Source of the DNA: Methanothrix harundinacea 6Ac
GTDB lineage: Archaea > Halobacteriota > Methanosarcinia > Methanotrichales > Methanotrichaceae
Assembly (NCBI RefSeq): GCF_000235565.1
Contig: NC_017527.1
Span: forward strand, 2,480,001 to 2,544,000
DNA length: 64,000 nt
Direction of reading: 5' to 3'
The notes under the pieces are model-generated. The model searched no databases. It worked only from the letters and a program-made list of their open reading frames with translations, and was not told the DNA's origin. A program made the position numbers and the translations under genes. This document shows positions 53,770 through 58,421 of this stretch, piece after piece. The number at the start of each line of letters is the position of its first letter. The first letter of the stretch is position 1.

Positions 53770-53809
53770 TCCCTCGTCGAAGGCGGGATATTCGGTGCAA
53801 GAGGGCGGC

Positions 53810-54100
53810 TCACTCCTCAAGCCGCTTGTAGAGCTTGTGCGCCTTGTCGATGGTCGTTATCTCCAGGATCTTGACCAGCCCGTCCTTCTCGCAAATTTGA
53901 TAAAAGACGGTGAAAGATCTGCCGATATGCAATCGATAGAGCTTAAAATCCAGATGCAGAAGCTCCTTATCGGCTCCCAGGCCCGGGTAGGGGTCCTCCG
54001 AGAGGGCGTGGCACTTCTCCTTGATGAGCCGCTGGCTCTTCTCCGGAAGCTCCGATAGGTATTTCAGAGCTTTCCGATCGATCATCACCTGGCGGCTCAA
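53810..54100 (-). CDS. RelE/ParE-family toxin, copy 1
   Basis: A 96-residue RelE-fold mRNA interferase-like toxin: KALKYLSELPEKSQRLIKE helices, LLHLDFKLYRLHIGRSFTVF strands with the conserved Arg, and KAHKLYKRLEE end. Such toxins cut mRNA at the ribosome (family knowledge). The gene overlaps the antitoxin stop by four bases. By eye, 90 of 96 residues match copy 2 at 55497. Confidence 0.88.
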   Translation of the reverse strand: MSRQVMIDRKALKYLSELPEKSQRLIKEKCHALSEDPYPGLGADKELLHLDFKLYRLHIGRSFTVFYQICEKDGLVKILEITTIDKAHKLYKRLEE

Positions 54101-54282
54101 GGGGGGAGCTCCACAAAGTCGCCCTCATCGGCGATCGTCTTCAGATGCGCTATCAGACGGGCCTTCTTCTCGCGCTCTATCATCTCTTCGAGGAGCTGGC
54201 TGAAGGTCTCTCCCGGCCTCTTGAGATCGGATAGCTCAGCCCATACGGACTCGGTGACGGCCACCCGCTTTGTTGCAATCAT
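54097..54282 (-). CDS. antitoxin of the RelE-type module, copy 1
   Basis: A 61-residue antitoxin with a ribbon-helix-helix/AbrB-like start (MIATKRVAVTESVWAELSDL) and an acidic end (KTIADEGDFVELPP). It should repress its own promoter together with the toxin. The ATG sits just downstream of the tandem TTGTAAAG repeats, suggesting a leaderless transcript. About 55 of 61 residues match copy 2. Confidence 0.85.
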   Translation of the reverse strand: MIATKRVAVTESVWAELSDLKRPGETFSQLLEEMIEREKKARLIAHLKTIADEGDFVELPP

Positions 54283-54289
54283 GATGATA

Positions 54290-54318
54290 TTGTAAAGGTT
54301 GTAAAGCTGATATAATTT
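54290..54318 (-). promoter_or_regulatory. TATA-like element and tandem 9-mer operator of the toxin-antitoxin module
   Basis: In + orientation TTGTAAAGG and TTGTAAAGC lie head to tail (54290-54307), next to GATATAATTT (54309-54318), which reads AAATTATATC on the coding strand. The repeats fall between the TATA box and the expected transcription start. The same arrangement is kept in copy 2 (55977-55994). Confidence 0.55.
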
Positions 54319-54471
54319 GTGGCAGGGAGAGCGAACGACGGGGTGCGAAAGCCGATAGCGGGTCCATTTTTGCGCTTTGGAGAAGGGGTATGGAGAGTTA
54401 GAGCCCCTCGGCCAGGTGGTGATCAGCGGCGGTCTTGGGTGCGGTAGGGCGGGCGGCGCCTAAAGCTTAGA

Positions 54472-54678
54472 TCATACCGCCACCAGGATGGCGTCGAGCC
54501 GATCTTCTGGAACTGGGATGCCGTCTTCCGCGAGAGCGGCGGTGTATACCTCGATCGCTTCCTTGATCTTCTCGATCGCCTCCTCCTTGCTCCTCCCCTG
54601 GCTGATGCAGCCGGGGAGGCTGGGGCATTCCGCCACCCAGAAGCCGTCCTCGCCTGGGTATATTATGACCTGCCGCAT
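54472..54678 (-). CDS. HicB-like antitoxin (no HicA partner found)
   Basis: A 68-residue HicB-type protein: VIIYPGEDGFWVAECPSLPG, then SQGRSKEEAIEKIKEAIEVY, the partial RNase H-like fold of the family. HicB neutralises the small RNase HicA. No intact hicA lies beside it; a damaged one is 170 bases upstream next to a second HicB-like gene. It may be an orphan. Confidence 0.83.
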   Translation of the reverse strand: MRQVIIYPGEDGFWVAECPSLPGCISQGRSKEEAIEKIKEAIEVYTAALAEDGIPVPEDRLDAILVAV

Positions 54679-54724
54679 GGTATCAGTCCCGATTATCGCC
54701 TGTTATTATATCCGCGTCTGCTTA

Positions 54725-54907
54725 TTAACCTGCTGGGGATCGAGGCGACGGCATGGAAAGTAAATTGAGGAAAGCTGCTTCGGGATGCCTAAGCGATGGG
54801 ATTGTACCGATTCCCGGCGGCCCCAGGGCGCGGGTGGAAGGGCGGAGCCCACGAGTTTGTAGACGTCTGACCAGCTCGTTCCAGGAGACTGGTGAGAGCC
54901 GGGACAT
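54725..54907 (-). pseudogene. hicA relic interrupted by GC-rich sequence
   Basis: The first ~21 residues, MSRLSPVSWNELVRRLQTRG, are a good HicA start (dsRNA-binding toxin). After that no frame gives the expected Gly-Gly-X-His active-site region. The sequence turns into GC-rich DNA similar to the local intergenic repeats. It begins five bases after the stop of the HicB-like gene at 54912, the normal hicB-hicA spacing. Confidence 0.55.
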
Positions 54908-54911
54908 GAAC

Positions 54912-55136
54912 CTAAGCCTCGACTGGCGCCTCGGGAGCTTCTATCTCGTGGCCTTCGATCGGCGGTATCGGCAGATCGAACCGCAGGCTCAGAGCTATCC
55001 AGTCCTCTATGGCCATCTTAAGGTTTTTGCGGCACTCTTCGGAGGTTTTGCCGGTCGCCCAGACGCCTTTCAGCTCCGGCACTTCGCCGTAATAGGGCTG
55101 CTCGTCATCGATGACCTCATAGACCGCCTTTGACAT
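54912..55136 (-). CDS. HicB-like antitoxin beside the hicA relic
   Basis: A 74-residue HicB-fold protein: YEVIDDEQPYYGEVPELKGV, TGKTSEECRKNLKMAIEDWI, then a C-terminal acidic/Pro-rich tail (EGHEIEAPEAPVEA). ATG 55136 fits the family start better than the frame's earlier ATG. It precedes the damaged hicA, so its toxin is probably lost. Confidence 0.8.
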   Translation of the reverse strand: MSKAVYEVIDDEQPYYGEVPELKGVWATGKTSEECRKNLKMAIEDWIALSLRFDLPIPPIEGHEIEAPEAPVEA

Positions 55137-55494
55137 TGCTGCCTGGATGTACTCGCAGAACATATCAAGGCCTAACTGGGTCGCCTGAGATATAAATCCT
55201 CGTCAGCGGGAGCCTCGATGGCGAGGCTCAACTGGGGCCTGGAAGGCTGGGTCGATCCCTCCCCGGCCCGGCGGCCCTCATGCGCGGGAGGGCGGGCGGC
55301 GCCGGAGGCGGGACGCTGCCCCGCTCGGCTGGGCCCCTGCTGGGCGGTGGCGAGATTCGGGCGCCTTGTCCACCTCCTGGCGCTGGATCGCTATGGTGGA
55401 TGCAGATCTGGTATTCGGGAACCCGCGCCAAAAAGACGATGGCGGTTCCTGGCAGAAAAAGAATGACGTAGGAATCCCTTTCCCATCTACGCGG
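55137..55494. other. intergenic region rich in GC repeats, no gene seen
   Basis: About 360 bases between the HicB-like gene and the second RelE module. From 55255 to 55380 it is GC-rich with GGGCGGGCGGCGCCGGAGG, resembling the dispersed repeat in reverse orientation. No coding frame is supported. Confidence 0.4.
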
Positions 55495-55496
55495 GC

Positions 55497-55787
55497 TCAC
55501 TCCTCGAAACGCTTGTAGAGCTTGTGCGCCTTGTCGATGGTCGTTATCTCCAGGATCTTGACCAGCTTGTCCTTCTCGCAAATTTGATAAAAAACTGTGA
55601 ACGATCTGCCGATATGTAACCGATAGAGCTTGTAATCCAGATGCAGCAGCTCCTTATCAGCTCCCTGGCCAGGGTATGGGTCCTCTGAAAGGGCGTGGCA
55701 CTTCTCCTTAATGAGTCGCTGGCTCTTCTCCGGAAGCTCCGATAGATATTTCAGAGCCTTTCTATCGATCACCACCTTGCGGCTCAA
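55497..55787 (-). CDS. RelE/ParE-family toxin, copy 2
   Basis: A 96-residue RelE-like toxin differing from copy 1 at about six positions (e.g. Lys for Gln at 4, Gln for Leu at 41, Phe for Leu at 94). The conserved Arg/Tyr of LHIGRSFTVFYQI are kept. It overlaps its antitoxin gene by four bases. Confidence 0.88.
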   Translation of the reverse strand: MSRKVVIDRKALKYLSELPEKSQRLIKEKCHALSEDPYPGQGADKELLHLDYKLYRLHIGRSFTVFYQICEKDKLVKILEITTIDKAHKLYKRFEE

Positions 55788-55969
55788 GGGGGCAGCTCCA
55801 CGAAATCACCTTCATCGGCGATACTCTTCAGATGCACGACAAGACGAGCCTTCTTCTCGCGTTCTATCATTTCTGCGAGGAGCTGGCTGAAGGTCTCTCC
55901 CGGCCTCTTGAGATCTGAGAGCTCAGCCCATACGGGCTCGGTTACAGCTAGGCGCTTTGTTGCAATCAT
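55784..55969 (-). CDS. antitoxin of the RelE-type module, copy 2
   Basis: A 61-residue antitoxin, near-identical to copy 1 with changes such as Leu for Val at 7 and Ala for Glu at 32. The start at 55969 corresponds exactly to copy 1; the longer open frame upstream is non-coding. Cross-neutralisation between copies is likely but untested. Confidence 0.85.
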   Translation of the reverse strand: MIATKRLAVTEPVWAELSDLKRPGETFSQLLAEMIEREKKARLVVHLKSIADEGDFVELPP

Positions 55970-56420
55970 GATGATATTGTAAAGGTTGTAAAGCAGATAT
56001 AATTTGTGGCAGGTGCAAACGATCCTCTCAATCCTTCGAGGCGATGGCATAAGGGATGGGGCGAAGCAGGTGCAGATACCAGGCTGCCCTGGGCGCCGGA
56101 GGTCGGGCGTCGCCGAAGGCGGGCGAGGCGATCCGCATCCTACAAACGGCGGATCTCTGTTTGTGTCCCATGGCGAATGATGGCGGGTGGGTGGCGAAAG
56201 TTCGTTGGTATCGCACTCCCTAAGAGACAAATAGGCTCCTTCGCAGACGGTAGTGGCTTTATCTCAAGGTCTGTGAAATGTGAAATCCGGCGATCCGGGA
56301 GGCAATCGATGCGGAATTATGGAATCCCTTGGTCGATCACGTCTAAATCGCTAGAACGAACCAAGATATCTAGTTCGTTCATCTCAGTGAAATAATACAA
56401 CTAAATATTTTGGGCATAAT
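55970..56420. other. intergenic region upstream of the duplicated module, no gene seen
   Basis: About 450 bases. It begins with the promoter/operator of copy 2. A GC-rich block follows (about 56070-56140), then an AT-rich part with a direct repeat-like pair CGAACCAAGATA/CTAGTTCGTTC near 56356-56380. No coding frame is supported. Confidence 0.4.
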
Positions 56421-58277
56421 TCACCAAAATTCTCCTTTATCCACCGACGCTTTGATTTTATCATCAATAAATACCATATAACGTAGAAATTCTTCAGATG
56501 AACCATCAAAAAGACCTGTCTTTAGAAGCGGCCAATTATCACCTTCACGTGATACCTCTGATTCTATCTCTTCTATGATACTTATTTTTCCTGATTCTGG
56601 ATTCCAATGTTTAATGAAGTGAGCAGTTTTTAATAAATAGTCGATTTTATAGTCGATTTTATGGTCCAATATTTTTGCACGTACAAGAAGGAGTAAATAC
56701 TCAAAACGATCAAAATAGTTCTTAAAATCATCATAAAAATATATATAATCTATAAAATAATTGCGAAGGTGATCAAAAAGGTAATCACAAAAGCATATAT
56801 TGTTGTCTTGATCCGACAGAAATCTTTGAACATCAGATTTCATAACTCCTAACCTATTCAAATCTACAATTAAGGGGCGAAGTTCATCTTTATCAATAAA
56901 TCTTGTGTCATTAACCAAAGCGGAGAAAATATTATATTTTCCAGCTGCAATCGACGCAATTCCCCCTCCATAAAGAAGGAGAAGTGCGGGATATAGTCTC
57001 AGATTTACCAGAGTACTTATAATATCAATATTCTTACCACTTTCATGAATTACGATGGATCTGCTTGTTCTCGTGTGTATTTTGGGGTAATTAGCTATTC
57101 GCTCAAGACAGTTTATCCATAGAGCATTATGGGCTATTTCTCCCCAGTAACACCCTGTGATCATCATGGCCAGAACCGGCTCCGTAAGTGATTCGTAAAG
57201 CTGCACTCGTCTTCTGAACTCATCTTTGATCTCATCTTCAGAGATGCCACTAACAGGGAACGTTTGATCGTCGATTAATCTCGCATAAAGCGTCTCAACG
57301 TTCTGATTCATAAGATCGTGAAGACGAATATCACAACGATCATCACGTAAATATGTCTTAATTCGTTGCACTAGAACCGGCGCCGAAAGCGGGTGGGGGT
57401 TGGAATACTTTTCCAAGGCAAAGACGTTCTCTGCCAGTTCGCCGAAAAAGTTGTCAGCGTCTCGAATGCGTATGACTTCTGCTCGCCTGTGACGTATCAA
57501 TTTGTGTGCTCTTTCACCGGGTTCGTCTCTTGCTGCCCAGTAAGTTGTAAATCTGTGATTTTTACGTCGCTCTATAGCCTTGCGCAACGCTGTATCCCAC
57601 TCTGCAGACCATCCACAAACGATTAGCCCGAATTCATCAAATACGCGATCCAGAAGTTTATTCATCTCAGTGCCATATTTCTCGAGCTCGTCACGAGTAT
57701 TTCTGATTCGGGTGTCTAGATAGTCACCATTTACCTTAATTATGGTGCATCTCTCATACGGAATTGGCAAAGCTCCTTTTACATCGCTTGAATTACTGAC
57801 TACAGCGGGTTCAATGCCGACATCGTCCAGAGCTTTTTCAATTAAATGATCGAAGTTGGTTGTGACTATGACTCGAATGTATCCATTGGCAACTAGCTTT
57901 GCTATCGCTTTATGGGCTGTAGTCGGTACTTTCAACCCTTGTTCGCGCTCTTCTTCGTTCGGCTCAAAATAGCTTTTTAGTAATTGCCTACGTCCTGTGG
58001 GAGACTTTCGAACTTCGGCAAGCAAATCACCGTAATCGGGCTTTTTGTCAAATTTATTTATGTACCAAGTCTCAGGATCTGGGTCGCATTCTTCCCCCAT
58101 TACATGTGCCAATTTTTGTATAAGATCTTCGGTAATTCCCCAAGCAGTTCGTATTCCAGACTCTTGGGATATCCCCGAACCGAGAAGTAGCGCATAGAGC
58201 CCTTCATTAGAGTGGACCGAGATCGCTAGTGATAACATGGGATCTATCATGTATGTAACTTTGCATACACATCTCAT
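56421..58277 (-). CDS. SIR2-like domain protein with long helical C-terminus (defence-type)
   Basis: A 618-residue protein. The SIR2-like domain occupies residues ~15-270: LLLGSGISQESGI (nucleotide loop, residues 31-43), VIVTTNFDHLIEKAL (139-143 core), IIKVNGDYLDTRIRNT (181-185 core) and IVCGWSAEWDTAL. The remaining ~350 residues are helical and unassigned. SIR2-domain proteins with such tails deplete NAD+ in antiphage defence (family knowledge). Here the position usually His is Asn183. The gene is AT-rich beside toxin-antitoxin genes, suggesting acquisition. ATG 58250 is an alternative start. Confidence 0.85.
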   Translation of the reverse strand: MRCVCKVTYMIDPMLSLAISVHSNEGLYALLLGSGISQESGIRTAWGITEDLIQKLAHVMGEECDPDPETWYINKFDKKPDYGDLLAEVRKSPTGRRQLLKSYFEPNEEEREQGLKVPTTAHKAIAKLVANGYIRVIVTTNFDHLIEKALDDVGIEPAVVSNSSDVKGALPIPYERCTIIKVNGDYLDTRIRNTRDELEKYGTEMNKLLDRVFDEFGLIVCGWSAEWDTALRKAIERRKNHRFTTYWAARDEPGERAHKLIRHRRAEVIRIRDADNFFGELAENVFALEKYSNPHPLSAPVLVQRIKTYLRDDRCDIRLHDLMNQNVETLYARLIDDQTFPVSGISEDEIKDEFRRRVQLYESLTEPVLAMMITGCYWGEIAHNALWINCLERIANYPKIHTRTSRSIVIHESGKNIDIISTLVNLRLYPALLLLYGGGIASIAAGKYNIFSALVNDTRFIDKDELRPLIVDLNRLGVMKSDVQRFLSDQDNNICFCDYLFDHLRNYFIDYIYFYDDFKNYFDRFEYLLLLVRAKILDHKIDYKIDYLLKTAHFIKHWNPESGKISIIEEIESEVSREGDNWPLLKTGLFDGSSEEFLRYMVFIDDKIKASVDKGEFW

Positions 58278-58421
58278 AAATTAATCGGTATCTCTGCCAA
58301 ATCAATCTTTAACTCGATCGCAACACATAGTTCGTTGCTACTCGCTGAAATGTTCGAGGACACATATATTTTTACCACATGAAGACCCAGTAAGTCGATA
58401 CGAATTCTTCGAGACGATCCC

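Follow-up and report, generated by a model that had tools for sequence, protein, structure and literature searches.

The gene at positions 56421-58277 on the minus strand of the window, by which we mean the whole 64,000-nucleotide stretch of Methanothrix harundinacea 6Ac analysed here, encodes a full-length member of PDC-S65, a candidate defence family already included in PADLOC, and belongs to the type that carries an asparagine at the position of the usual histidine of SIR2 NADases. Comparison across the family indicates that asparagine in place of histidine is a recurrent and probably still active variant. The gene is one intact open reading frame (58277..56421) of 618 codons counted from the first ATG. 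Its product scores 41.2 bits against Pfam SIR2_2, above the curated cut-off of 24.5, and matches the PADLOC PDC-S65 profile over its full length (E 3e-199; residues 6-602 align with profile positions 8-580 of 592), such that a chance observation can be dismissed and the assignment as a SIR2 defence-type protein, originally made by the sequence-only reading, is supported. The family consensus N-terminus M-I-D-P aligns at residue 10, and in eight relatives the ATG equivalent to Met10 overlaps the stop codon of an upstream hsdS gene by the four bases ATGA (L013, L003, L012, L016, L018, L027, L034, and L051). The true start is therefore probably Met10 (58250), which yields a protein of 609 residues; residues 1-9 of the structure model have a pLDDT below 50. 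The 2.57 Mb genome encodes no further protein of PDC-S65 or with SIR2_2. The nearest named relative stems from Methanothrix harundinacea (52% identity), and an identical copy of this relative is present at locus L049 from genome G009, which belongs to the window's own genus. PDCs are candidates derived from a guilt-by-embedding approach, most of them without experimental test (PMC12988326). In the literature searched we found neither a text naming PDC-S65 nor an assay of any of its members, and NADase activity is thus attributed to the family by analogy.

The SIR2 domain (Pfam SIR2_2) spans residues 12-290 (57408..58244, minus strand, as are all features of the gene) and contains the NAD-binding glycine loop GSGIS (residues 33-37, 58167..58181) and the TTNFD motif (residues 139-143, 57849..57863) with the catalytic Asn of the TTNxD signature, Asn141, which is invariant in the 68 covered rows of the family alignment. 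Besides GSGIS and TTNFD, the protein carries IIKVNGDYLDTRIRNT, in which Asn183 is the residue in question. It is encoded by AAT and forms, together with Gly184, an NG motif (57726..57731) that is followed by the conserved GWSAEWD (residues 222-228, 57594..57614) with an invariant Asp228. The modeled SIR2 domain matches those of the SPARSA, ThsA, KomC, DSR2, and Avs5 NADases with Z scores of 17.8-26.8. SPARSA provides the best match (VIA, Z 26.8 to 8y80_E over residues 12-290, rmsd 2.8 over 270 residues), followed by ThsA, KomC, DSR2, and Avs5, and it is also the closest solved SIR2 domain by sequence (E 1.2e-8).

In length and in its combination of a SIR2 domain with a helical tail the window protein resembles other PDC-S65 proteins; it is of the Asn type and lacks type I restriction neighbours. 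The SIR2-APAZ protein of SPARSA, a short Argonaute partner, is closest by sequence and fold but has His186 where the window protein has Asn, and its tail is an APAZ region pairing with Argonaute, for which the tail of the window protein gave no Pfam hit; none of the seven neighbouring proteins scanned gave an Argonaute Pfam match. DSR2, ThsA, and KomC share the SIR2 NADase fold and the TTN motif; however, they have His at the compared position and a different overall organization (DSR2 has about 1000 residues, ThsA a SLOG domain, and KomC is a short SIR2 subunit). Avs5 (SIR2-STAND) shares the Asn at the HG position, at an almost equal spacing from TTNxD of 45 vs. 44 residues (PMC12931631), and its SIR2 fold matches our model with Z 17.8-18.0; in Avs5, however, a STAND NTPase module follows the SIR2 domain, whereas the window protein has a 325-residue tail without a matched fold.

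KVNGD of the window protein aligns with KIHGD of SPARSA, which places Asn183 opposite H186 (numbering according to PMC10781750) and bears out the earlier observation of an Asn at the usual His position. We aligned 69 non-duplicate PDC-S65 members gathered from genomes, plasmids, and one viral contig, with sampling outside the window's phylum resting on one relative search, plasmid records, and the viral contig. At column 183, 49 of these relatives have His and 20 have Asn, and no other residue occurs. A single base exchange leads from His (CAY) to Asn (AAY); Asp, Tyr, Gln, Leu, Pro, and Arg are equally one base away, and none of them was seen. On a careful tree, which was built without the His/Asn column and whose bootstrap is not fully settled, the state changes nine times (bootstrap range 8-10), and at least five changes are forced by supported branches. 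All three members of the methanogen clade to which the window protein belongs have Asn, as does an archaeal clade of six members. Asn is further present in representatives of the Gemmatimonadota, Rhodothermales, Ignavibacteriales, Eremiobacterota, Bacteroidales, and Cenarchaeum, as well as on Halobacterium and Haloterrigena plasmids and one Rubrobacter plasmid. A tandem pair of PDC-S65 genes (L059 and L066; G197:C1:193840-197549) in one archaeal genome is of the Asn type in both copies. The Asn proteins retain Gly33 and Gly35 in 18 of 18 covered cases, and Thr139, Thr140, Asn141, Phe142, Asp143, Gly184, Gly222, Trp223, Ser224, and Asp228 in 20 of 20. An alternation limited to His and Asn together with preserved pocket residues points to a substitution that is tolerated or useful and not to decay. 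Mean SIR2 identity within the Asn type is 42% vs. 54% within the His type; divergent lineages contain disproportionately many Asn forms, which may have experienced some relaxation. Motif reading of further archaeal SIR2_2 proteins outside PDC-S65 showed HG and not NG. Recurrent His/Asn switching in PDC-S65 appears to be unreported in the literature searched.

A natural precedent for an NG form exists. PaAvs5-1 has NG instead of HG, and in infected cells it lowers the NAD+ level and causes ADPR to rise; an N153H mutant is partly active, N153A and N153Q mutants are inactive, and NG and HG occur at a ratio of about 1:1 in Avs5 (PMC12931631). The ratio of 49 His to 20 Asn in PDC-S65 and the activity of NG proteins in Avs5 (PMC12931631) together imply that defence SIR2 NADases are not defined by a strict requirement for His. 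For SPARSA, exchange of the His for Ala abolishes NADase activity, and simulation led to the argument that the Asn-His pair controls a loop and a water molecule rather than taking part directly in catalysis (PMC10781750). Such an indirect role would make Asn a plausible substitute for His. On the other hand, the loss of activity upon His to Ala exchange and the use of DSR2 H171A and KomC H146N mutants in solved structures imply that the residue is not freely spared or changed in some SIR2 NADases. Avs5 is furthermore a different SIR2 family, and NG in PDC-S65 might behave differently.

A scan for compensating residues revealed no His or other residue consistently gained in the Asn proteins, and the earlier suggestion that another residue may take over from the missing His thus finds no support. 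Eleven of 46 near-invariant columns differ in the Asn proteins, the His/Asn column included, several of them mainly through one haloarchaeal clade. The strongest associate of the His/Asn state is column 230 (Ala230 in the window protein, 57588-57590), chosen post hoc (Fisher p 9e-8): All 49 His-type proteins have Ala, while the Asn-type proteins have Ala in nine, Gly in eight, and Arg in three cases. We do not treat this coupling as significant because the tree offers too few independent pairs (four on supported branches), and residue 230 is a possible second site, found post hoc, that is coupled to the switch. A broader and tentative idea, conceivable rather than likely, would be that in two separate SIR2 defence families, Avs5 and PDC-S65, His and Asn can stand in for each other as catalytic states and have been exchanged repeatedly, possibly with residue 230 as a tuning site and with virus-encoded inhibitors or the choice of substrate or product as the selective force.

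The C-terminal domain (residues 292-618, 56424..57404), a candidate sensor or regulator, is mostly helical and, when folded alone with AlphaFold2, forms a compact separate domain (pLDDT 89, pTM 0.90). Mean identity of relatives to the query is 26% in the tail vs. 55% in the SIR2 part, i.e., the tail is diverging about twice as fast. The tail of the window protein has no Pfam match, Foldseek gave a best E value of 0.3 in both PDB and BFVD and hence no confident match, and the best VIA hit (Z 8.4) is a designed protein. With matches this weak we assign no fold to the tail, nor do we take them as evidence of a new fold. The tail plausibly serves as the sensor, and in this respect the earlier description of an unassigned helical tail with a possible sensory function holds.

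Compared with about 55-70% GC in the surrounding region, the gene has a GC content of about 33-46%. The window copy is solitary and lies beside two near-identical genes for ParE-type toxins of 96 residues, about 1.4 kb apart (53810-54100 and 55497-55787, both minus strand), with antitoxin-like genes between or next to them (UPF0150, 54912-55163; VapB-like, 55784-56230). Toxin and antitoxin-like genes constitute a duplicated toxin-antitoxin segment. The stretch 53793-58411, flanked by a methyltransferase gene and a P-type ATPase gene, is an insertion site of variable content. It is empty in a sister species (G007), where these two genes are about 0.2 kb apart, is occupied by toxin-antitoxin segments without a PDC-S65 gene in G008 and G010, and contains a shorter matching stretch in G009 and G012. 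G008 and G009 carry PDC-S65 elsewhere, beside a CTP synthase gene, and two sister-species copies (L002:6118-9851 and L127:3275-6858) are located just downstream of such a gene, at a site that differs from that of the window copy. The window copy is probably a horizontally acquired AT-rich insertion, and the PDC-S65 gene is one that moves. Copies of it were found on plasmids and on one viral contig; a search of a phage collection yielded only weak matches of 24%.

We consider it likely, by analogy with the solved SIR2 NADases, that the protein is a single-protein abortive-infection NADase whose NG form is functional and whose C-terminal domain keeps the enzyme inactive and senses a sign of infection. 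Once activated, the SIR2 domain would destroy cellular NAD+ as a defence against viruses, and Asn183 would do the job of the usual His, either by hydrogen bonding to the nicotinamide ribose or by positioning loop and water. The sequence-only reading had instead raised the possibility that the NG form binds but does not cleave NAD+, and this appears unlikely. An Asn that is common in a family and accompanied by proven NADase activity, the combination that would contradict it, has largely been found, although the proof comes from the related Avs5 family and not from PDC-S65 (PMC12931631). A pseudo-enzyme, acting as a sensor or scaffold that binds NAD+ or ADP-ribose without cleaving it, would be in line with the inactivity of the SPARSA His to Ala variant (PMC10781750), with the mutant constructs KomC H146N and DSR2 H171A, and with the greater divergence among the Asn-type proteins, but it is quite unlikely given that the checked pocket residues including Asn141 are invariant in the Asn proteins, that all nine changes are between His and Asn, with no Asp, Tyr, Gln, Leu, or Arg at this position, and that a natural NG protein hydrolyses NAD+ (PMC12931631). 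It is also very unlikely that the SIR2 domain is active without being a hydrolase, i.e., that it transfers ADP-ribose to a target or produces a cyclic ADP-ribose signal. ADP-ribose transfer is described for other sirtuins (PMC4518038), and a His to Asn exchange could alter what attacks the ribose; however, the nearest solved folds are those of NADases, the NG form of Avs5 yields ADPR (PMC12931631), and no conserved target or effector gene recurs beside PDC-S65 except for restriction genes.

These restriction genes lead to a further reading, which relates to the trigger and would fit with NADase chemistry, namely that PDC-S65 guards restriction enzymes and is set off by viral inhibition or depletion of the type I complex, with solitary copies being stranded or guarding another enzyme. 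Many relatives of the gene are found within type I restriction loci, often behind hsdS. In L013 (L013:4363-14146) the order is HsdM, HsdS, PDC-S65, and HsdR, as confirmed with Pfam, and the ATGA overlap between hsdS and PDC-S65 in the eight loci listed above suggests translational coupling. Among loci of at least 8 kb, hsd genes are located nearby in 16 of 36 of the His type and in none of nine of the Asn type, a clade-driven difference (p 0.017). We rejected the notion that the Asn type has no restriction partner because the difference is clade-driven and because an HsdM-S fusion follows the Asn-type gene in L042 at a distance of about 630 bp. HsdM-type genes occur elsewhere in the window's genome, in favour of a guard function. 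Nevertheless, hsd genes are missing from the vicinity of the window copy and of most relatives, and co-operonic placement may only reflect gene sharing in defence islands; we regard a guard function as unlikely.

The broader consequence is that absence of the His does not reliably mark a SIR2 defence protein as a dead enzyme. The NG variant known from Avs5 is extended to a different family, PDC-S65, in both archaea and bacteria, and the natural His/Asn pairs within this family represent a set for probing the real role of the residue.
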